A DNA stretch of 64,000 nucleotides from Clostridia bacterium (GTDB taxonomy: Bacteria; Bacillota; Clostridia; Oscillospirales; UBA644): the NCBI GenBank assembly GCA_017934975.1, contig JAGBIM010000027.1, positions 62,001-126,000 on the forward strand, given 5' to 3'. Below, piece by piece: positions 30,736 through 39,876 of this stretch (position 1 is the first letter of the stretch; the number at the start of each line of letters is the position of its first letter). The position numbers and the translations under genes were made by a program. The notes under the pieces were generated by a model. It was not told where the DNA came from. It saw only the letters and a list, made by a program, of their open reading frames with translations, and ran no database searches.

Positions 30736-31341
30736 ATGTCGAAACGCGATGAAAAACGAGCCCAGATTCTGGAATTCGTCACCGCAAAGGTTCAGGAGGA
30801 GGGGTACGTTCCTTCCGTTCGGGAAATCTGCAAGGCGGTGGACCTTTCTTCCCCCGCAACCGTGCATTACCATCTCAATCAGCTTTGCGAGGAAGGCTTG
30901 ATTACCAAGGAGCCCGGCAAAAAGCGTTTTCTTCGCCTTTCTTCCGCTTCTTCGGGCGGTTCCTTCGTGAAGGTTCCGGTGGTGGGCCGCGTTACGGCAG
31001 GGGTGCCGATTCTGGCACAGGAATGTATCGAAGACTATATCCAGGTTCCCGCCGATCAGATTCGCGGACGGGAGACCTTCGCCCTGACTGTGCGGGGGGA
31101 CAGCATGATCAACGCCGGAATTTTGGACGGGGACGTGATCGTGGTGCTCCGTACTCCCGTGGCAGAGGACGGGGAGATCGTGGTTGCGCTTTTGGGAGAC
31201 GAGGCAACGGTGAAGCGTTTCTATCGGGAAGGCCGCCGATTCCGTCTTCAGCCCGAAAACGACGCTTACGCTCCCATCTATGCGGACGAGGTGACCATCC
31301 TCGGAAAAGTGATCGCTCTTCACCGTTACGAAATCCGATAA
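30736..31341 (+). CDS. lexA: SOS repressor LexA
   Basis: Represses DNA-damage genes until RecA filaments trigger its self-cleavage. In 201 residues it has an N-terminal winged helix (YVPSVREICKAVDLSSPATVH region) and the C-terminal S24 peptidase domain. The cleavage site is Ala-Gly in GRVTAGVPI, the nucleophile Ser lies in VRGDSMINAGI and the Lys in DEATVKRFYR. AAAGGAG precedes the ATG at 30736. A strong terminator follows. Confidence 0.96.
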   Translation: MSKRDEKRAQILEFVTAKVQEEGYVPSVREICKAVDLSSPATVHYHLNQLCEEGLITKEPGKKRFLRLSSASSGGSFVKVPVVGRVTAGVPILAQECIEDYIQVPADQIRGRETFALTVRGDSMINAGILDGDVIVVLRTPVAEDGEIVVALLGDEATVKRFYREGRRFRLQPENDAYAPIYADEVTILGKVIALHRYEIR

Positions 31342-31461: not shown

Positions 31462-31490
31462 TTTACTTTCTGCGCGCGATGTGTTATAAT
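31462..31490 (+). promoter_or_regulatory. Promoter of the hydrogenase operon
   Basis: TTTACT (31462-31467) and TATAAT (31485-31490) have a 17-base spacer. No TTGTTAA-type Rex operator was recognised around it. Confidence 0.75.
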
Positions 31491-31554: not shown

Positions 31555-32052
31555 ATGGGTAAGACCACAATCTCAAAGATTCCCTTCAAGGGAACACCCG
31601 AACAGGAACGCGAACTGCGTGATATTCTTGCGTCCCTGAAAGATCAGCAGGGTGCCCTGATGCCCGCCATGCAGAAGGCACAGGACATTTACGGCTACCT
31701 CCCCATCGAAGTTCAGACTATTATTGCCGAAGTCTTGAACGTTCCCGTGGAGGAGGTTTACGGCGTTGCCACCTTCTACGCTCAGTTCGCTCTGAACCCC
31801 AAGGGTAAGTATACCATCGGCGTTTGCCTCGGTACCGCTTGCTACGTCAAGGGCTCTCAGGACATTTTTGACAAGTGCTCCGAGATCCTGAAGATCAAGG
31901 GCGGCGAAATCACCGAAGACGGTCTGTTCTCCCTGGAAGCGACCCGTTGCATCGGATGCTGCGGTCTTGCTCCCGTTATGACGGTGAACGATGACGTTTA
32001 CGGGAAAATCACCGCGAAGGACGTTCCCGATATTCTGAAGAAATACAACTGA
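31555..32052 (+). CDS. hydC: Bifurcating [FeFe] hydrogenase subunit HydC (NuoE-like)
   Basis: Thioredoxin-fold [2Fe-2S] subunit of the NADH/ferredoxin-dependent hydrogenase. It has 165 residues with the NuoE layout: an N-terminal helical part (LMPAMQKAQDIYGYLP, VYGVATFYAQF) and cluster ligands in CLGTACYVKG and ATRCIGCCGLAPV. AGAGGAAG lies ahead of the ATG at 31555. It is the first gene of the operon, while its partners hydB and hydA are the last two; seven other genes stand between them. Confidence 0.93.
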   Translation: MGKTTISKIPFKGTPEQERELRDILASLKDQQGALMPAMQKAQDIYGYLPIEVQTIIAEVLNVPVEEVYGVATFYAQFALNPKGKYTIGVCLGTACYVKGSQDIFDKCSEILKIKGGEITEDGLFSLEATRCIGCCGLAPVMTVNDDVYGKITAKDVPDILKKYN

Positions 32053-32107: not shown

Positions 32108-32464
32108 ATGAAAATCAGCACCATCGCAGATCTTCTCGAAGCCACCGTTCTGTGCGGGGAAGATCATCTGGAAAACGAGGTCCATTCCGCTTGCGGATCG
32201 GATATGATGAGCGACGTGCTTGCCTTCGTGAAGGATCAGGCCGTTCTTCTGACCGGTCTTGTGAATTTGCAGGTCGTACGCACCGCGGAAATGATGGATA
32301 TGCGCTGCATCGTCTTCGTTCGGGGGAAAAAGCCCTCTCAGGACGTAATCGATGCCGCGGATGAGGCGGGGATCGTCGTTCTTGCCACGTCCGAGCGGAT
32401 GTATCCTGCCTGCGGAAAGCTCTATGCTACGGGTCTGCAGGGGGGGAGCGTGTCCTCCTTATGA
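32108..32464 (+). CDS. DRTGG-domain protein 1
   Basis: A small soluble protein of 118 residues that looks like a stand-alone DRTGG domain, a fold also present in phosphotransacetylases and CBS-domain proteins and thought to bind a nucleotide or act as a sensor. Family-like stretches are SDMMSDVLAFVKDQAVLLTG and CIVFVRGKKPSQDVIDAA. GGGAGG lies ahead of the ATG at 32108 (TTG at 32105 is less likely). It overlaps the next gene by four bases. Related to the protein at 34225. Its role in the hydrogenase operon is unknown. Confidence 0.8.
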   Translation: MKISTIADLLEATVLCGEDHLENEVHSACGSDMMSDVLAFVKDQAVLLTGLVNLQVVRTAEMMDMRCIVFVRGKKPSQDVIDAADEAGIVVLATSERMYPACGKLYATGLQGGSVSSL

Positions 32465-32901
32465 GCGAACCCGTCAAGTTCCATTTCGATGTTGCGGGCG
32501 ATAATTTCGCCTCGGCGGGGGAAGCCTCCGTCAAGGTGAAAAAGCTGCTTCGCCAACTGAACATGGATCCCGAAACCATCCGTCGCGTGTCCATTGCCAT
32601 GTATGAAGGTGAAATCAACATGGTCATTCACGGGAACGGCGGCTCTGCGGACGTTTATCTGTACCCCGATCGGGTGAAGATCGTTCTTGCGGATACCGGC
32701 CCCGGTATTGCGGACGTTTCCCTTGCCATGCAGGAAGGGTTCTCCACCGCAAAGGACAACGTGCGGGCCCTGGGCTTCGGCGCAGGGATGGGATTGCCCA
32801 ATATGAAGCGTTATACCGACGTGATGGAAATTGAATCCGAAGTCGGAAAAGGAACTACCGTGACCATGGAGGTCTTTTTGCCCGGCAAAAAGCCTTGCTG
32901 A
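32461..32901 (+). CDS. GHKL ATPase, anti-sigma-factor-kinase-like (RsbW/SpoIIAB type)
   Basis: A 146-residue protein consisting of one HATPase_c domain, as in anti-sigma factor kinases. The N box is YEGEINMVIHGNGG, G1 is LADTGPGIAD, and the G2 lid shows GFGAGMGLPNMKRY, followed by GKGTTVTMEVF. It could phosphorylate a partner Ser or simply bind ATP. No anti-anti-sigma or sigma gene lies beside it. The start ATG overlaps the stop of the DRTGG gene. Confidence 0.85.
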   Translation: MSEPVKFHFDVAGDNFASAGEASVKVKKLLRQLNMDPETIRRVSIAMYEGEINMVIHGNGGSADVYLYPDRVKIVLADTGPGIADVSLAMQEGFSTAKDNVRALGFGAGMGLPNMKRYTDVMEIESEVGKGTTVTMEVFLPGKKPC

Positions 32902-32932
32902 CGCGGCTTCCTTGTGAAAGGAGGTTTTCCGT

Positions 32933-34228
32933 ATGCCGATTCATTCCGTGTCCCTTCTGCGGGACAAGTGTAAGGGTTGCACCGCTTGTCTGAAGCGTTG
33001 CCCCACTGAAGCGATCCGGATCCGTGACGGACACGCCGTCATCCGCTCCGAACGCTGTATCGACTGCGGGGAATGTATCCGTATCTGTCCCCACAAAGCA
33101 AAAAAAGCTACCTACGACGATTTTTCCGCGCTGGATCACTTCCGTTGGAAAATCGCCCTTCCCGCTCCGGCTCTTTACGGACAGTTCGACAACCTTGAGG
33201 ACGTGGACTTCGTTCTGACCGGGCTTCTGGGATGCGGCTTTGACGACGTGTTTGAAGTGGCCGCCGCCGCGGAACTGATCTCCGAATATACCCGTCGGTA
33301 TCTGCACCGACCGGATATTCCCAAGCCGGTTCTTTCTTCCGCCTGCCCCGCCATCGTGCGGATCATTGCGGCGCGCTTCCCCAGCCTTTGTCAAAACGTA
33401 ATGCCCGTCCTTCCTCCCGTGGAGTTGGCGGCGCGTATGGCAAGAGAGGAAGCGAAGAAAAACCATCCCGAATTGACCGACGAGGATATCGGCGTGTTCT
33501 TTATCTCCCCCTGTCCCGCAAAGGTCAGCTACGTCAGGAACCCCATCGGCGTGGAAAAGAGCGCCATAGACGGCGCCCTCTCCATGAGCGACGTTTATTT
33601 CCGTCTTCTTCCCGTGATGAAGAATATCGTCACGCCCAAGTCCCTCTCCCGTACGGGGTTGATCGGGATCAGTTGGGCGGGCTCGGGTGGAGAATCCTCC
33701 GCTCTGTTCAACGATAAGTATCTGGCCGCGGACGGAATGGAAAACGTCATTCAGGTTTTGGACGAAATCGAAAACGGCAATATCTCGGGTCTGGAATTCG
33801 TGGAGCTCAACGCCTGCAGCGGAGGCTGCGTGGGCGGCGCGTTGACGGTAGTGAATCCCTACATTTCAAAAGCACGGCTGCAGAGCCTGCGTCGGTATTT
33901 GCCCGTGTCCCAGAACCGTATCGGTTCCGCTCTGGACAAGGAGCAGACCGACGTTCCTGCCGATTATCAATGGAACGTTCCGTTGAAATACACCCCCATC
34001 CTTCAGCTGGACGAGGATATCACCGCCGCCATGCGGAAGATGTCTGAAATTCAGCGGATTCGCGGACAACTCCCCGACCTGGACTGCGGTGCCTGCGGTG
34101 CGCCCACCTGCCTTGCTCTGGCAGAGGACGTGGCCTGCGGCGACGCGGCGGAAGGTGATTGCATTATGAAATGGAAAGAAACCTTTCGGAATGCATACGC
34201 GGGATTGAAGGAGGAAGAATCGAAATGA
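32933..34228 (+). CDS. [FeFe] hydrogenase-like iron-sulfur protein, probable sensor type
   Basis: A 431-residue protein. Residues 13-53 carry two [4Fe-4S] ferredoxin motifs (CKGCTACLKRCP, CIDCGECIRICP). The hydrogenase-like domain follows with modified H-cluster motifs: SSACPAIV (Ala137 at the proton-relay position, Cys138), ISPCPAKV (Cys194) and ELNACSGGC (Cys295, Cys299). All four cubane ligands are therefore kept. At the C-terminus CGACGAPTC...C (Cys385, 388, 393, 410) is a separate [4Fe-4S] domain. The arrangement fits the sensory (group C-like) hydrogenases, but there is no PAS domain. It may relay H2 or redox state to the neighbouring ATPases. AAAGGAGG precedes the ATG. Confidence 0.85.
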   Translation: MPIHSVSLLRDKCKGCTACLKRCPTEAIRIRDGHAVIRSERCIDCGECIRICPHKAKKATYDDFSALDHFRWKIALPAPALYGQFDNLEDVDFVLTGLLGCGFDDVFEVAAAAELISEYTRRYLHRPDIPKPVLSSACPAIVRIIAARFPSLCQNVMPVLPPVELAARMAREEAKKNHPELTDEDIGVFFISPCPAKVSYVRNPIGVEKSAIDGALSMSDVYFRLLPVMKNIVTPKSLSRTGLIGISWAGSGGESSALFNDKYLAADGMENVIQVLDEIENGNISGLEFVELNACSGGCVGGALTVVNPYISKARLQSLRRYLPVSQNRIGSALDKEQTDVPADYQWNVPLKYTPILQLDEDITAAMRKMSEIQRIRGQLPDLDCGACGAPTCLALAEDVACGDAAEGDCIMKWKETFRNAYAGLKEEESK

Positions 34229-34557
34229 CCGCAACGCAACTTCGTGAAGCCCTCTCCCTGCAGATTCTGGCCGAGCCGGATCCGCAACGGGACGTGACGG
34301 GCGGTTATGCGGGAGACCTGCTCAGTTGGGTTATGGGTCGCGCCCAAAGCGGAGACGCCTGGGTGACCATCATGACCAACCGCAACATCCTTGCGGTGGC
34401 CTCCCTCGCCGATACTGCCTGCATTGTCGTGGCGGAAGATTCCGCCGTGGAAGAGGACGTGGTCGCACTGGCGACGGAAAAGGGGATCAATCTCTATCGC
34501 AGTCCTCTTGCCACCTTTGATCTGTGTTGCCGCATCGGTTCTTTGTTGGGCGTATGA
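34225..34557 (+). CDS. DRTGG-domain protein 2
   Basis: A 110-residue paralogue of the protein at 32108, with the VTGGYAGDLLSWVMGRAQSG stretch that matches the DRTGG motif region (here VTGG) and a C-terminal part of CIVVAEDSAVEEDVVALA type. The ATG at 34225 overlaps the stop of the iron-sulfur gene by four bases, and its own stop overlaps the next start, so translation of genes 34225 to 35839 is chained. Function unknown. Confidence 0.8.
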   Translation: MTATQLREALSLQILAEPDPQRDVTGGYAGDLLSWVMGRAQSGDAWVTIMTNRNILAVASLADTACIVVAEDSAVEEDVVALATEKGINLYRSPLATFDLCCRIGSLLGV

Positions 34558-35282
34558 GCCGTTATTATTACGATTTACACATTCACTCCTGCTTGTCTCC
34601 CTGCGCGGATGACGATATGACCCCCGCCAACATCGCGGGTATGGCGTCTTTGAAGGGGCTGACTCTGTTGGCTCTGACCGATCACAATTCCTGCCGCAAC
34701 TGCCCCGCTTTTTTTGAAGCGTGCAAGGCCTTCGGCATCGTGCCCGTTCCCGGAATGGAACTGACCACGGCGGAGGATATCCATCTCGTGGTTCTTTTTC
34801 CCACTTTGGAGCAGGCTATGGAGTTTGATCGGGAGATCCACGGTCATATTCTTCCCATTCGCAACCGTCCGGATATTTTCGGAAACCAACGGATCGTGGA
34901 CAGCGACGACAATCTTCTGGAAGAGGAGGATCTGTTGCTGATCAACGCCACGGATCTGGACGTGGATTCCGCCATCGCCCTGGTTCGCCGATACGGCGGT
35001 GCTCTGTATCCGGCCCATATTGACCGTCCCTCCAACGGCATGATTGCCATTCTGGGAACCGTTCCTGCGGAATACGGGTTTTCCTGCGTGGAATTCAACG
35101 ATATTTCCCATCGGGACGCCATCCTGGCGGAGCACGGACTGCAGCGTTGCAAAACCCTGTGCAGCTCCGACGCCCACGATCTGGGACGGATTAACGAAGC
35201 GGAGCATTTTATTGAGTTGGAGGATGAGCCCTATTCTTCCGCCCTCGTCCGTCGGCGGTTGATTGAGCACTTAACCTTATGA
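34554..35282 (+). CDS. PHP-domain phosphoesterase
   Basis: A 242-residue metal-dependent phosphoesterase of the PHP family. Motifs: YDLHIHSCLSPCADDDMTP (metal His pair and Asp), LLALTDHNSCRN, a Glu in VPGMELTTAED, AHIDRPSNG and CSSDAHDLGRI with the last His. Relatives hydrolyse nucleotide or sugar phosphates; substrate unknown. It carries the same start/stop overlap (ATGA) with both neighbours. A PHP enzyme next to kinase-like ATPases suggests a phosphorylation or second-messenger circuit, which is inference. Confidence 0.88.
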   Translation: MSRYYYDLHIHSCLSPCADDDMTPANIAGMASLKGLTLLALTDHNSCRNCPAFFEACKAFGIVPVPGMELTTAEDIHLVVLFPTLEQAMEFDREIHGHILPIRNRPDIFGNQRIVDSDDNLLEEEDLLLINATDLDVDSAIALVRRYGGALYPAHIDRPSNGMIAILGTVPAEYGFSCVEFNDISHRDAILAEHGLQRCKTLCSSDAHDLGRINEAEHFIELEDEPYSSALVRRRLIEHLTL

Positions 35283-35839
35283 AAGAATTGTCTTTGAACA
35301 TTCTCGACATTGCGCAGAATTCCGTTTCTGCCGGTGCAAAGAACGTGACCGTTTCCCTCAACGAGGATGAGAAGGGGATCCTGACGCTTTCCATTCTGGA
35401 CGACGGAAAGGGAATGTCTCCCGAAATGGTCCGCACCGTAACGGATCCCTTCTGCACCACCCGTACCACCCGTAAGGTTGGCATGGGAATCCCCCTGCTG
35501 AAGATGGCAAGCGAACAGGCGGGCGGAAGTCTTTCCATCGTTTCCGTGTCCCGGGAAACCGATCCCGAGCATTGCGGAACGGCCGTCACCGCCACCTTCG
35601 ACACCAACAGCATCGATTTTACGCCCCTTGGGGACGTGGTCGATTCCATGGTGGTTTTAATTCAGGGGCATCCGGAGATTGATTATCTCTTTCTCCACAC
35701 CACACCCAACGGTGAAGTCCGTCTCGATACCAAAGAGCTGCGGGCGGTCTTGGGTGAGGAAATTTCCCTCGGAGAATTTGAGATCCTTGCGTGGATCCGC
35801 GATTCTTTGGAGGAACAGTACCAAGCATTAAAAAAATGA
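35279..35839 (+). CDS. GHKL ATPase, histidine-kinase-like ATP-binding domain protein
   Basis: A 186-residue protein with a HATPase_c fold at residues 1-115: the N box LNILDIAQNSVSAGAK, DDGKGMSPE (G1), TDPFCTTRTTRKVGMGIPLL (F and G2 boxes), then a partly separate C-terminal part (residues about 130-186). There is no dimerisation domain or H box, so it is not a full histidine kinase. Its DxFxTT box is of the CheA/sporulation kinase style. Role in the hydrogenase module unknown. Confidence 0.82.
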   Translation: MKELSLNILDIAQNSVSAGAKNVTVSLNEDEKGILTLSILDDGKGMSPEMVRTVTDPFCTTRTTRKVGMGIPLLKMASEQAGGSLSIVSVSRETDPEHCGTAVTATFDTNSIDFTPLGDVVDSMVVLIQGHPEIDYLFLHTTPNGEVRLDTKELRAVLGEEISLGEFEILAWIRDSLEEQYQALKK

Positions 35840-35864: not shown

Positions 35865-36230
35865 ATGAAAACTCTTGCGGAACTCGAAGCCATCAGAGAA
35901 AAGATGAGAGGGAAGGTTGCCGTGCGCGAAGCATCCGACAACACTACCCGTATCGTCGTCGGTATGGCCACTTGCGGTATTGCCGCCGGTGCCCGTCCCG
36001 TCCTGAACACCATCGTTGAGGAAGTTTCCAAAATGGGACTTTCCGAAACCGTCACCGTCACCCAGACCGGTTGTATCGGCCTTTGCCAGTACGAACCCAT
36101 CGTGGAAGTGTACCAGACCGGCAAGGACAAGGTTACCTACGTGAAGATGGATTCCGAAAAGGCCAAGAAGGTCCTGGAAGAACACATCAAGGGCGGCAAG
36201 GTCGTGTCCGATTACACCATTAAACTCTAA
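35865..36230 (+). CDS. Thioredoxin-like [2Fe-2S] ferredoxin protein
   Basis: A 121-residue protein with the stand-alone thioredoxin-like [2Fe-2S] fold. Ligands lie in GMATCGIAAGARP and VTQTGCIGLCQYEP, the same pattern as the N-terminus of HydB just downstream. An N-terminal helical part (residues 1-30) precedes it. It probably passes electrons to or from HydB. The spacing to hydB is 17 bases. GGAGG precedes the ATG. Confidence 0.88.
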   Translation: MKTLAELEAIREKMRGKVAVREASDNTTRIVVGMATCGIAAGARPVLNTIVEEVSKMGLSETVTVTQTGCIGLCQYEPIVEVYQTGKDKVTYVKMDSEKAKKVLEEHIKGGKVVSDYTIKL

Positions 36231-36247: not shown

Positions 36248-38074
36248 ATGTTTCGTACTCACGTTATGATTTGCGGCGGTACCGGTTGTACGTCCTCCGG
36301 CAGCAATCGCCTGCATACGAAGCTCGAAGAAGAGCTTAAGGCAAAAGGCCTGGAAAATGAAGTCAAGGTCGTTCAGACCGGCTGCTTCGGTCTTTGTGCC
36401 CTCGGTCCCGTTATGATCGTGTATCCCGACGGTACCTTCTACAGCATGGTCAAAGAAGAAGACCTTCCCGAAATCGTGGAAGAACACCTTCTCAAGGGCC
36501 GTCCCGTCGACCGTCTCGTCTATAAAGACAGCGCCGAGGAAGTGGTTGCGGAAGAGCTGGAAAAGACCTATTCTCTGAACGATACCGCTTTCTACAAGAA
36601 GCAGATGCGTATCGCTCTGCGTAACTGCGGTGTAATCGACCCCGAAATTATTGACGAATACATCGCCATGGACGGTTACAAAGCCCTCGGTAAGGTTTTG
36701 ACCGAAATGACTCCCGAAGAAGTGATTCAGCTGATGCTGGACTCCGGTCTTCGCGGCCGCGGCGGCGCAGGCTTCCCCACCGGTATGAAGTGGAAATTTG
36801 CCCGTGCTTCTCAGGGTGAAAAGAAATACGTCTGCTGTAACGCCGACGAAGGGGACCCCGGTGCTTTCATGGACCGTTCCGTTCTGGAAGGTGACCCCCA
36901 CGCCGTCATCGAAGCTATGGCCATCGCCGCCTACGCTATCGGTGCCGATCAAGGTTACGTGTACATCCGTGCCGAATACCCCATCGCTGTAAAGCGTCTT
37001 TCCATCGCCATCGAACAGGCCCGCGAATACGGCCTTCTGGGCGAAAATATCTTCGGAACCGGCTTTAACTTCAATCTGGACATCCGTTTGGGTGCCGGCG
37101 CATTCGTCTGCGGCGAAGAAACCGCTCTGATGACCTCCATCGAGGGTAAGCGCGGCGAACCCAGACCCCGTCCTCCCTTCCCCGCCGTCAAGGGTCTGTT
37201 TGCAAAGCCCACCGTTCTGAACAACGTGGAAACCTACGCCAACATTCCTCAGATCATCCTGAAGGGTGTGGATTGGTTCCGTTCTATCGGTACCGAAAAG
37301 TCCAAGGGCACCAAGGTCTTCGCTCTGGGCGGTAAGATCACCAATACCGGTCTTGTGGAAGTTCCCATGGGTACCCCCCTGCGTACCATCATCGAAGAAA
37401 TCGGTGGCGGTATCCCCAACGGGAAGAAGTTCAAGGCTGCTCAGACCGGCGGTCCTTCCGGCGGTTGTATCCCCGCTTCTCACCTGGACGTTCCCATCGA
37501 CTACGACAACCTGATCGCCATCGGCTCCATGATGGGCTCCGGCGGATTGATCGTTATGGACGAAGACAACTGTATGGTTGACATTGCCAAGTTCTTCCTG
37601 GAATTCACCGTGGATGAATCCTGCGGGAAATGTACTCCCTGCCGTATCGGTACCCGCCGTCTGCTGGAAATGCTGACCAAGATCACCGACGGTAAGGCTA
37701 CGCTGGAAGATCTGGACAAGATGGAAGAGCTCTGCTATTATATTAAGGAAAACTCCCTCTGCGGTCTCGGCCAGACGGCTCCCAACCCCGTTCTTTCCAC
37801 TCTGCAGTATTTCCGTGATGAATACGTTGCTCACATCGTGGACAAAAAATGTCCCGCCGGCGTCTGCAAGAACCTGCTGAAATACAGCGTCATTTCCGAT
37901 AAGTGCTTCGGTTGCGGCATGTGTATGCGTGCCTGCCCCGCCAACGCCATCTACGTTACCGACTACACCGCTCCCGGTAAGAAGAAGCCCGCCGTGGCCA
38001 TCGACACCGATAAGTGCGTGAAGTGCGGTGCTTGTATCGGTACCTGTAAGTTCAGTGCCATCGAAAAGAAATAA
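36248..38074 (+). CDS. hydB: Bifurcating [FeFe] hydrogenase subunit HydB (NuoF-like, FMN/NAD)
   Basis: The flavin subunit where NADH oxidation and electron bifurcation are centred. The 608 residues hold an N-terminal [2Fe-2S] thioredoxin-like domain (CGGTGCTSSGSN, VVQTGCFGLCALGP), the NADH/FMN-binding NuoF core (GLRGRGGAGFPTGMKW, CNADEGDPGAFMDR, AYIYIRAEYP-like VYIRAEYPIAV, GAGAFVCGEETALM), the SLBB and [4Fe-4S] part (ESCGKCTPCRIG) and two C-terminal ferredoxin clusters (CFGCGMCMRACP, CVKCGACIGTC). Full length for the family. Confidence 0.96.
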   Translation: MFRTHVMICGGTGCTSSGSNRLHTKLEEELKAKGLENEVKVVQTGCFGLCALGPVMIVYPDGTFYSMVKEEDLPEIVEEHLLKGRPVDRLVYKDSAEEVVAEELEKTYSLNDTAFYKKQMRIALRNCGVIDPEIIDEYIAMDGYKALGKVLTEMTPEEVIQLMLDSGLRGRGGAGFPTGMKWKFARASQGEKKYVCCNADEGDPGAFMDRSVLEGDPHAVIEAMAIAAYAIGADQGYVYIRAEYPIAVKRLSIAIEQAREYGLLGENIFGTGFNFNLDIRLGAGAFVCGEETALMTSIEGKRGEPRPRPPFPAVKGLFAKPTVLNNVETYANIPQIILKGVDWFRSIGTEKSKGTKVFALGGKITNTGLVEVPMGTPLRTIIEEIGGGIPNGKKFKAAQTGGPSGGCIPASHLDVPIDYDNLIAIGSMMGSGGLIVMDEDNCMVDIAKFFLEFTVDESCGKCTPCRIGTRRLLEMLTKITDGKATLEDLDKMEELCYYIKENSLCGLGQTAPNPVLSTLQYFRDEYVAHIVDKKCPAGVCKNLLKYSVISDKCFGCGMCMRACPANAIYVTDYTAPGKKKPAVAIDTDKCVKCGACIGTCKFSAIEKK

Positions 38075-38087
38075 GGAGGTACCTGAA

Positions 38088-39827
38088 ATGGCTGATGTGA
38101 ATTTGAAAATCAACGGCATTGAGGTTACCGTTCCTGCGGGAACCACCATCCTCGAAGCCGCGAACGTTGCAGGGGTTAAAATTCCTACCCTGTGCTTCTT
38201 GAAAGATATCAATGCGATCGGCGCTTGCCGTATCTGCATCGTTGAGGTGAAGGGCGCCCGCGCTCTCGCCGCCGCTTGCGTATATCCCGTAAACGAAGGG
38301 ATGGAAGTTTTCACCGATACCCCCAAGGTTATCGCTTCCCGCAAGACCACCCTCGAACTGATCCTCTCCAACCACAATATGAAGTGTCTGTCCTGCCCCC
38401 GCAGCCAGAACTGCGAACTGCAGAAGCTGGCTCTGGAATACGGCGTGGATTGCGACCGCTTCCAGGGTGCCGTGACTCCCTCCGAAGTGGAAAACACCAA
38501 CCCCTATCTGGTTCGTGACAACAGCAAATGTATTCTTTGCCGCCGTTGCTCCGCCGTCTGCCGTGCCAACCAGGGCGTGGGCGTCATCGGTGCCAACGAA
38601 CGCGGATTCAACACCCATATCGGATGCGCCTTCGATCAGGATCTGACCGACGTTGCTTGTATCGGATGCGGTCAGTGTACCGTGGTTTGTCCCACCGCCG
38701 CTCTGACGGAAAAGGACGACACCGATCCCGTCTTCAAGGCCATTGCCGATCCCACCAAGCACGTGGTGGTTGCTCCCGCTCCCTCCGTTCGCGTTCAGAT
38801 CGCCGAAGAATTCGGTGCTCCCATCGGAACCAACGCGGAAGGCAAGATGGTTGCCGCTCTGCGCCGTCTGGGCTTCGACGCCGTCGTTGACGTTGACGTT
38901 GCCGCTGACGTTACCATCATCGAAGAAGGTACCGAATTTATCAACCGCGTTCAGAACGGTGGTGCTCTGCCTCTGATCACCTCCTGCTCTCCCGGTTGGG
39001 TCAAGTACTGCGAACATTACTATCCCGAATTCATCCCCAACCTTTCCTCCTGCAAATCTCCTCAGGGTATGTACGGCGCTCTCATGAAGTCCTACTACGC
39101 CGAGAAGATGGGCTGGGATCCCAAGGACGTCTTCGTGGTCAGCATTATGCCCTGCACCGCCAAGAAGTTTGAACGCACCCGCGAAGGCTACAAGGTGGAC
39201 GGTCTCAACGACATCGACGCCGCTCTGACCACCCGCGAACTGGCCAAGATGATCCGCAAGGTGGGTCTGATCTGGGAAAAACTCCCCGATGAAGAATTCG
39301 ATCCTCTCTTCGGTATCGCTACCGGTGCGGGCCACATCTTCGGTGCTTCCGGCGGTGTTATGGAAGCCGCTCTGCGTACCGTGGTGGAAAAACTGGAAGG
39401 CAAAGAGCTTGATTCCGTTGATTTCACCGACGTTCGCGGCATGGAAGGTGTGAAGGAGGCTACCTACAACGTAGCCGGTATGGAAGTCAAAGTTGCCGTC
39501 GTCAGCGGTACTGCCAACGCAGGCCGTCTGCTTGATAAGATCAAGTCCGGCGAAGCCAACTACCACTTCATCGAAATCATGGCTTGCCCCGGCGGCTGTG
39601 TCAACGGTGGCGGTCAGCCCATCCATGACGCTTACACCCGCGCCAACGTGGATATCCGCGGTCTGCGCGCCAAGGGTCTGTACAATCAGGATGCCGCTTG
39701 TGCCGTTCGTAAGTCCCACGAGTCTCCCATCGTGAAGGAACTCTACGCCAACTACCTGGGCGAACCCGGCGGACACAAGGCTCACCACCTGCTCCACACC
39801 ACCTACGAAAAGCGTAAGAAGTATTGA
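38088..39827 (+). CDS. hydA: Bifurcating [FeFe] hydrogenase catalytic subunit HydA
   Basis: Catalyses H2 formation or oxidation at the H-cluster. It has 579 residues. In order: an N-terminal [2Fe-2S] domain (Cys36, 47, 50, 64), the His-Cys [4Fe-4S] site (His96, Cys100, 103, 109), two ferredoxin [4Fe-4S] clusters (Cys148-158 and Cys191-201), the H-domain (ITSCSPGWV, IMPCTAKKFE, IMACPGGCVNGGG) and a short C-terminal tail. Ser301 stands where TSCCPxW normally has its second Cys. The start ATG at 38088 has AAGGAGG upstream; the frame is open earlier but would overlap hydB. A terminator follows. Confidence 0.96.
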   Translation: MADVNLKINGIEVTVPAGTTILEAANVAGVKIPTLCFLKDINAIGACRICIVEVKGARALAAACVYPVNEGMEVFTDTPKVIASRKTTLELILSNHNMKCLSCPRSQNCELQKLALEYGVDCDRFQGAVTPSEVENTNPYLVRDNSKCILCRRCSAVCRANQGVGVIGANERGFNTHIGCAFDQDLTDVACIGCGQCTVVCPTAALTEKDDTDPVFKAIADPTKHVVVAPAPSVRVQIAEEFGAPIGTNAEGKMVAALRRLGFDAVVDVDVAADVTIIEEGTEFINRVQNGGALPLITSCSPGWVKYCEHYYPEFIPNLSSCKSPQGMYGALMKSYYAEKMGWDPKDVFVVSIMPCTAKKFERTREGYKVDGLNDIDAALTTRELAKMIRKVGLIWEKLPDEEFDPLFGIATGAGHIFGASGGVMEAALRTVVEKLEGKELDSVDFTDVRGMEGVKEATYNVAGMEVKVAVVSGTANAGRLLDKIKSGEANYHFIEIMACPGGCVNGGGQPIHDAYTRANVDIRGLRAKGLYNQDAACAVRKSHESPIVKELYANYLGEPGGHKAHHLLHTTYEKRKKY

Positions 39828-39846: not shown

Positions 39847-39876
39847 AAGACCACCCGAGCAATCGGGTGGTCTTAA
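39847..39876 (+). terminator. Terminator of the hydrogenase operon
   Basis: AAGACCACCCGA and TCGGGTGGTCTT pair around GCAA, followed by AATTTA, a weak T tract. Confidence 0.75.

Follow-up and report, generated by a model that had tools for sequence, protein, structure and literature searches.

A conserved DRTGG-GHKL-HydS-DRTGG-PHP-GHKL gene block inside a clostridial electron-bifurcating hydrogenase operon: a possible H2/redox-responsive switch

In the regulatory [NiFe]-hydrogenase system HoxBC-HoxJ-HoxA, a slow hydrogenase serves as the H2 sensor and feeds a kinase. In the group C [FeFe]-hydrogenase systems (TmHydS, HfsB-HfsC of Thermoanaerobacterium and HydS of R. albus), an H-domain sensor with a C-terminal iron-sulfur (FeS) domain is encoded near a kinase or serine phosphatase and a catalytic hydrogenase. 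It is also already known that group D genes are located near kinases and HydABC; TamHydS of Thermoanaerobacter mathranii is encoded beside a group A bifurcating hydrogenase with a histidine kinase-like ATPase, and shows raised H2 affinity and a change of secondary structure on H2 (PMC8163306, PMC13104023). The route by which sensory hydrogenases of group D pass on their signal was described as an open question (Land et al. 2020; PMC8163306). The present study concerns a window of 64,000 nucleotides from a Clostridia bacterium (Oscillospirales, UBA644; contig JAGBIM010000027.1, positions 62,001 to 126,000), in which six genes, here called DRTA, GHKA, HydS, DRTB, PHP and GHKB, lie between hydC and hydB-hydA of a bifurcating [FeFe]-hydrogenase operon. 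These six genes could constitute a dedicated cytosolic switch of the kinase/phosphoesterase type, responsive to H2/redox and to adenine nucleotides, that tunes an electron-bifurcating enzyme, here HydABC; the probability of this reading is put roughly at 0.45. The probable role of such a module would be to signal when hydrogenase output should rise or fall.

By published sequence features (PMC8163306, PMC10407848, PMC13104023), HydS (32933-34228; PF02906, 6.1e-27; PF04060, 2e-9) is a group D (M2e) putative sensory [FeFe]-hydrogenase. It combines two [4Fe-4S] clusters, an H-domain and a C-terminal Cx2Cx4Cx16C FeS domain, with eight N-terminal Cys and a tail of C385-x2-C388-x4-C393-x16-C410, and all cluster Cys are invariant among the homologues. 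TamHydS has the same domain order, with 12 accessory-cluster Cys and four H-domain Cys (PMC8163306, PMC13104023, PMC10407848). In both proteins Ala (A137 of HydS, in SSA137CPAI) replaces the proton-transfer Cys, i.e., C299 in CpI, and Ser (FISPC in HydS) occupies the M353 position. Residues E254/E291/S251/D267 of HydS correspond with a constant offset of 2 to the group D proton path E252/E289/S249/D265, the correspondence with TamHydS being drawn from constant offsets and motif context and not from a direct alignment. The likeness extends to E392/D393 and D378/D403 of TamHydS, and C19, R29, R31, R41, K57, D384, C385, E398, D399 and D409 of HydS also match published group D residues. The sole mismatch noted against the group D residue list is H34 in place of K35 of TamHydS; in addition, the M497 position is Asn in HydS and not Leu. 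In the published group D proton-path work, E252 variants of TamHydS kept <0.01% residual H2 oxidation.

The gene context differs from those of the described systems. The TamHydS papers, as far as their accessible text goes, describe the gene as flanked by an AraC regulator and do not mention the DRTGG pair, PHP, the second GHKL protein or the links with CBS domains and formate dehydrogenase. Unlike the group C sensors, HydS has no PAS domain detectable by Pfam, the phosphatase candidate is PHP instead of a PP2C/SpoIIE type, and DRTGG proteins are present. HoxBC-HoxJ-HoxA differs in its unrelated hydrogenase fold, its PAS-containing histidine kinase and its response regulator, none of which occurs in this block. 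In an open-access literature search, no account was found of the DRTGG pair, PHP, the second GHKL protein, the CBS forms, the rex neighbourhood or the association with formate dehydrogenase.

Two fused genes in relatives indicate that HydS-type domains do serve as signalling inputs. The first (L067:12869-15172, minus strand, genome G070) encodes 767 amino acids with a group C-like H-domain, FeS, PAS, HisKA and HATPase domains, i.e., a complete sensor kinase in one chain, and sits 2.2 kb upstream of the module, beside hydABC. The second (L188:14007-16253, plus strand), in genome G121, which is without group D HydS, encodes 748 amino acids in which a group C-like H-domain and FeS domain are followed by a sigma-54 AAA+ activator and a Fis-type helix-turn-helix. 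It lies about 2 kb downstream of hydABC and is a candidate one-component H2-responsive activator; no -24/-12 promoter was found near the L188 hydABC operon. A hydrogenase-like open reading frame of 741 amino acids is also present upstream of the module in L075.

Conservation of the block was analysed in 60 neighbourhoods from about 50 Clostridia-type families, picked solely for holding a HydS relative, and in a second set of 80 further named loci, mostly of gut and rumen Clostridia. A contiguous DRTA-GHKA-HydS-DRTB-PHP core was present in 38 of the 60 neighbourhoods and 68 of the 80 named loci, and in the former set was usually followed by hydC-GHKB-TRX2-hydB-hydA, where TRX2 is a thioredoxin-like protein. 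The neighbourhoods without a contiguous core were cut by contig ends, had a gene undetected or missing, or had a split block. PHP adjoins GHKB, with hydC allowed between them, in 43/60 and 73/80; hydC stands between the two in most families, and the hydC-first order of the window was found in 56 of the 80 named loci. Similar gene orders in other Clostridia, which the first-pass annotation of this DNA had mentioned, are thus borne out in about 50 families.

Co-inheritance was counted in 398 genomes of the phylum, with HydS taken at E<1e-70 and group A HydA at E<1e-100. HydS, PHP and GHKB occurred in 161, 157 and 173 genomes, respectively, and together as pairs in 150 (HydS and PHP), 156 (HydS and GHKB) and 155 (PHP and GHKB), with Fisher p<1e-82 for these pairs. 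Twenty families were polymorphic for HydS, and in 16 of them PHP tracked HydS in every genome. Since HydB was present in 159 of the 161 HydS genomes while HydS was absent from 140 of the 292 HydA genomes, the module is an add-on, which is what would be expected of an optional regulator and not of an enzyme subunit.

On whether the block separates freely from hydABC in relatives, which the first-pass annotation had set as a refuting condition, the outcome is mixed: some relatives have it apart from hydABC, but then either as reproducible sub-blocks (PHP-GHKB with the DRTGG genes, often beside rex) or next to formate dehydrogenase, which is also an electron-bifurcating enzyme. In L180-L185, from several families, the DRTGG genes, PHP and GHKB stand together between folC, usually with rex, and maf/radC/mreB (these neighbour names, except rex, are from sequence recognition only). 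In L188, L189 and L193, HydS and PHP are both absent, and GHKB, TRX2 and one DRTGG gene stay by the enzyme genes. At L187:5503-13173, rex overlaps DRTA, and HydS and PHP are fragments beside intact DRTA, DRTB, GHKB, TRX2 and hydCBA, as if the sensor and the phosphoesterase had decayed together.

The formate dehydrogenase lineages are two independent ones and a small sample. No group A HydA (E<1e-100) was found in G205 and its relative G157 or in G048; in G205 and G048, each 99% complete, HydF over the cut-off is missing as well. The bifurcating enzyme in these three genomes is a formate dehydrogenase (TIGR01591, 687-692 bits), the gene of which is interrupted by an in-frame stop, as would fit selenocysteine. 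In G048 (L196) the complete module directly adjoins it, whereas in G205 and G157 the module is found on the opposite strand at a distance of about 7 kb. E254 is kept in 41 of 43 HydS proteins, and the only two without it are those of G205 and G048, which retain every FeS Cys and have both lost the L2 lysine. The correlation of the lysine is not exclusive, as the HydS of L080 also lacks it though its genome has HydA. Because E254 is lost only where HydA and HydF are lacking, selection seems to maintain the H2 reactivity of HydS wherever a hydrogenase exists; the persistence of the module with formate dehydrogenase and an E254-less HydS suggests that it can run without H2 reactivity. The module is therefore tied to bifurcating NAD/ferredoxin enzymes and not strictly to H2. 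Bifurcating formate dehydrogenase operons of the form hydC-(GHKB)-TRX2-hydB, with an FdhA gene whose in-frame stop fits selenocysteine, were seen in L178, L179, L193 and L196.

Several module genes are fused in relatives: DRTA with GHKA (L057, L075, L076 and L077), PHP with GHKB (L059 and L094), HydS with DRTB (L067), and also GHKA with HydS. A CBS pair is fused to GHKA, by sequence, in L053, L069, L091, L181, L182, L194 and L195, four of these seven CBS-CBS-GHKA proteins being confirmed by Pfam (PF00571, ~1e-30); the genomes of L194 and L195 are without group D HydS. In the window, DRTA (32108-32464) is a stand-alone DRTGG-domain protein (PF07085, 35.0 bits vs a cut-off of 25.2) with D32, S35, L47, T49 and A60 invariant, and DRTB (34225-34557) is a second DRTGG-type protein at 22.3 bits, under the same cut-off. 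Although DRTB falls below it, the two profiles are homologous in hhalign (99.8%, E=5.7e-29), which makes them diverged paralogues. Their nearest solved relatives in a PDB profile search are the HPr kinase N-domain, AF_1212 and a CBS-DRTGG pyrophosphatase, the last a nucleotide-regulated enzyme that the DRTGG proteins resemble.

The gene for the NADH repressor Rex recurs beside the module. It was found within the ~18.5-kb locus in 10 of the 60 neighbourhoods, from eight families (chance <1% per locus; p~2e-11 if the loci are independent), and shares an ATGA overlap with the module gene that follows it in L057, L076 and L077, as well as in L187, which is outside the 60. The region upstream of hydC is enriched in Rex-like operators among relatives (at least 12 of 14 positions in 21 of 116; mean 10.0 vs 9.1 in shuffled sequences). 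Caldicellulosiruptor bescii has a Rex-bound site 39 bp upstream of its Hyd unit of five genes at Athe_1295 (PMC6391272), and the group D gene Athe_1292 (PMC3561251) precedes that unit by three genes; judging from the gene numbering, the unit would be hydC-GHKB-TRX2-hydB-hydA.

A possible mechanism could be assembled from the gene content, conservation, co-inheritance and fusions, the group D residues of HydS, and the intact ATPase and metal-site motifs. HydS, a slow H-cluster protein of group D, would register H2 and the ferredoxin redox state and, by a change of conformation, signal to GHKA and DRTB, which are encoded on either side of it. DRTA, with the CBS domains on GHKA in relatives, could let the ATPase/kinase read the adenine-nucleotide status. 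PHP and GHKB, encoded next to the enzyme, would be the output arm: by phosphorylating or dephosphorylating a partner protein they would lower or raise hydrogenase output. Slower transcriptional control by Rex runs in parallel in some relatives. With no DNA-binding or receiver protein in the block, and with GHKB and TRX2 kept beside hydBC, a post-translational output seems somewhat likelier than a transcriptional one. H2 as the signal in this organism, complex formation, phosphotransfer, its target and the direction (less hydrogenase at high H2) are inferred. A parallel could be offered by T. tengcongensis: it carries the group D gene TTE0887 near its HydABC (PMC3561251), and according to a report cited in PMC3492117 its NADH-hydrogenase activity was fourfold lower at high H2, a fall that would fit the module.

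On the other hand, several observations weigh against this switch. Response regulators, STAS proteins, sigma factors and DNA-binding proteins are all absent from the conserved block, and in a literature search no biochemical or genetic study of DRTA, GHKA, DRTB, PHP or GHKB was found. A genome search did not find HydG, HydF or Rex in the metagenome-assembled genome of the window (G000, 71% complete) despite the presence of HydA and HydS, which leaves H-cluster assembly and Rex unproven in this organism; the relative G377, which is 99% complete, has HydF and a Rex-like match. The best Rex-like site upstream of hydC in the window matches 11 of 14 positions, which is the chance level (one site of at least 11, with 1.5 expected), and a Rex site is not claimed here. 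The fusions are weaker evidence than they appear, as genes that lie side by side become fused more easily than those far apart. Given the formate dehydrogenase lineages, moreover, H2 is not the universal input of the module. The first-pass annotation had proposed a sense-and-respond circuit for H2 or redox; an FeS sensor circuit is still the best reading, but the link with H2 is not strict.

A broader statement, which is made more tentatively, is that DRTGG-GHKL-[HydS]-DRTGG-PHP-GHKL may be a complete signalling apparatus, not described before, that is dedicated to electron-bifurcating enzymes in general. It would combine an H2/ferredoxin sensor with adenine-nucleotide sensing by DRTGG/CBS domains and would use PHP instead of a PP2C or response regulator, and HydS would be an H2-blind FeS sensor where the enzyme is formate dehydrogenase. 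The co-inherited and co-fused set names candidate partners for group D sensors and predicts which pairs touch, and the formate dehydrogenase lineages offer a natural experiment in which H2 sensing is set apart from the other functions of the module. If true, the switch would account for the way in which Clostridia that ferment, those of the rumen and gut among them, match their H2 production to H2 pressure, a matter of relevance to biohydrogen and methane.

Some of the same observations could be accounted for by a role in assembly or repair, in which the GHKL proteins would be ATP-driven chaperones and HydS, TRX2, the DRTGG proteins and PHP would help to load HydB/HydA or FdhA with clusters or flavin. 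The retention of GHKB, TRX2 and a DRTGG gene by the enzyme genes where HydS and PHP are gone (L188, L189, L193) is in agreement with this, as are the block's want of a signal output protein and the persistence of the module, with all FeS Cys of HydS, beside formate dehydrogenase where the residues for H2 reactivity are lost. However, the 140 of 292 group A HydA genomes without HydS indicate that enzyme assembly does not need HydS, and the retention of E254 in all but the two proteins from genomes without HydA and HydF points to selection for H2 reactivity. Assembly is therefore considered unlikely, and the kinase/phosphoesterase switch is preferred.

PHP (34554-35282; PF02811, 1.6e-10) is a PHP-family metal-dependent phosphoesterase with a full metal site: the ligands HxH, TDH, E, H, H and DxH are all invariant or at least 90% conserved in 30-31 homologues, and H9, H11, C17, D43, H44, E69, E74, H77, H155, E180, D206 and H208 are invariant. 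The profile matches are to EndoQ and other PHP enzymes, with similarity to nucleoside 3',5'-bisphosphate phosphatase. Such likenesses, together with the nucleotide-binding relatives of CBS and DRTGG, could suggest that PHP hydrolyses a second messenger (e.g., pAp or a dinucleotide) sensed by DRTA, DRTB and CBS domains, and that HydS and the GHKL proteins control the enzyme. But the block has no nucleotide synthase, and PHP is missing in 11 HydS genomes, so that this explanation is rated as distinctly improbable. The LSPC motif with the invariant Cys17 of PHP follows immediately on the HxH metal motif. To our knowledge a Cys at this place is unusual among PHP enzymes, and it is possibly redox-relevant.

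The claim of the first-pass annotation that the block holds two kinase-like ATPases stands as far as the ATPase domain is concerned, since the HATPase N and G boxes are present in both GHKA and GHKB. However, no DHp/HisKA domain with a phospho-acceptor His was matched by Pfam in either, and they are only candidates for kinase activity. GHKA (32461-32901; PF13581, 1.4e-10) is a SpoIIAB-like GHKL ATPase/kinase candidate, short and stand-alone like SpoIIAB/RsbW, with conserved boxes N (E49/N53), G1 (D78xGPGI) and G2 (GFGAGMGLPN). GHKB (35279-35839; PF02518, 9e-13) is a histidine-kinase-type ATPase domain without DHp, with its N-box at D10/N14 and with N14, D41, G43, G45, G68 and G70 invariant; its profile matches over residues ~4-106 are only histidine kinase catalytic domains, CheA and MutL-type ATPases, and its C-terminal region of ~75 residues matches nothing in the profile search. 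Among named proteins GHKA is most similar to anti-sigma F factors (6e-8 against PDB), and its kinase boxes are intact, as would be expected of an SpoIIAB/RsbW-like anti-sigma kinase by which a sigma factor is set free to transcribe the hydrogenase genes. Such partner switching is very unlikely, because the TIGR01925 match (E=7.5e-18) reaches only 64.7 bits, far under the SpoIIAB family cut-off of 135, and because sigma factors, STAS antagonists and PP2C phosphatases are missing from the window's block, with no room left for one in the contiguous core of relatives. The fusion of GHKA to DRTGG or CBS domains in relatives is a further difference from SpoIIAB/RsbW.

It is equally improbable that the accessory proteins belong, as subunits, to an enlarged HydABC holoenzyme and extend electron transfer. 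In favour of this are the position of the genes inside the enzyme operon and the fourth subunit of ~15 kDa without cofactor, HydD, in the purified A. woodii enzyme (PMC6288185). Against it, the bifurcating hydrogenases characterised from other hosts consist of HydABC alone, the A. mobile NiFe-HydABCSL holoenzyme does not contain the products of hisK and hydD from its operon (PMC9304861), and nearly half of the HydA genomes are without HydS.

With regard to the layout in the window, all six open reading frames of the first-pass annotation were recovered in the same place and order between hydC and hydB-hydA, with TRX2 after GHKB. The ten genes, all on the forward strand, begin with hydC (31555-32052; PF01257, E=6.5e-53), a NuoE-like subunit of the bifurcating hydrogenase, and end with hydB (36248-38074; PF01512, PF10589, SLBB and ferredoxin domains), the flavin/NAD subunit, and hydA (38088-39827). 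HydA scores 871.7 bits against the NF040763 cut-off of 765 (NADH-dependent [FeFe] hydrogenase, group A6), and HydB and HydC are present, which places the enzyme among the group A6 electron-bifurcating [FeFe]-hydrogenases. Five overlapping or nearly overlapping junctions had been counted; four are 4-nucleotide ATGA overlaps (DRTA/GHKA, HydS/DRTB, DRTB/PHP and PHP/GHKB), but the fifth, GHKA/HydS, is a gap of 31 nucleotides. The distance from hydC to DRTA is 55 nucleotides and that from GHKB to TRX2 is 25. A fixed ratio of the products had also been read from the overlaps; this was rejected as an over-reading, because stoichiometry does not follow from gene overlaps.

TRX2 (35865-36230) is a thioredoxin-like ferredoxin-fold protein, the nearest solved chains of which are HydB-type N-domains. 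The earlier label of [2Fe-2S] protein is unproven: at 24.4 bits it is just under the PF01257 cut-off of 24.8, and it has three conserved Cys (37, 70 and 74) and not four, the motif CGIAAGAR being without the second cluster Cys throughout the family.

A lexA-like repressor gene (30739-31341) with its own terminator-like stem is located directly 5' of hydC; no link with the module was seen. A candidate sigma-A-like promoter, TTTACT-17-TATAAT (31462-31490, forward strand; consensus match only), lies upstream of hydC, and an intrinsic terminator with a 12-bp stem (39847-39874, forward strand; pattern scan) lies 3' of hydA, which makes a single ten-gene transcript plausible. The next gene 3' of hydA is on the opposite strand, and a similar pair of promoter hexamers was recognised by eye at the same place in the near relative L098.

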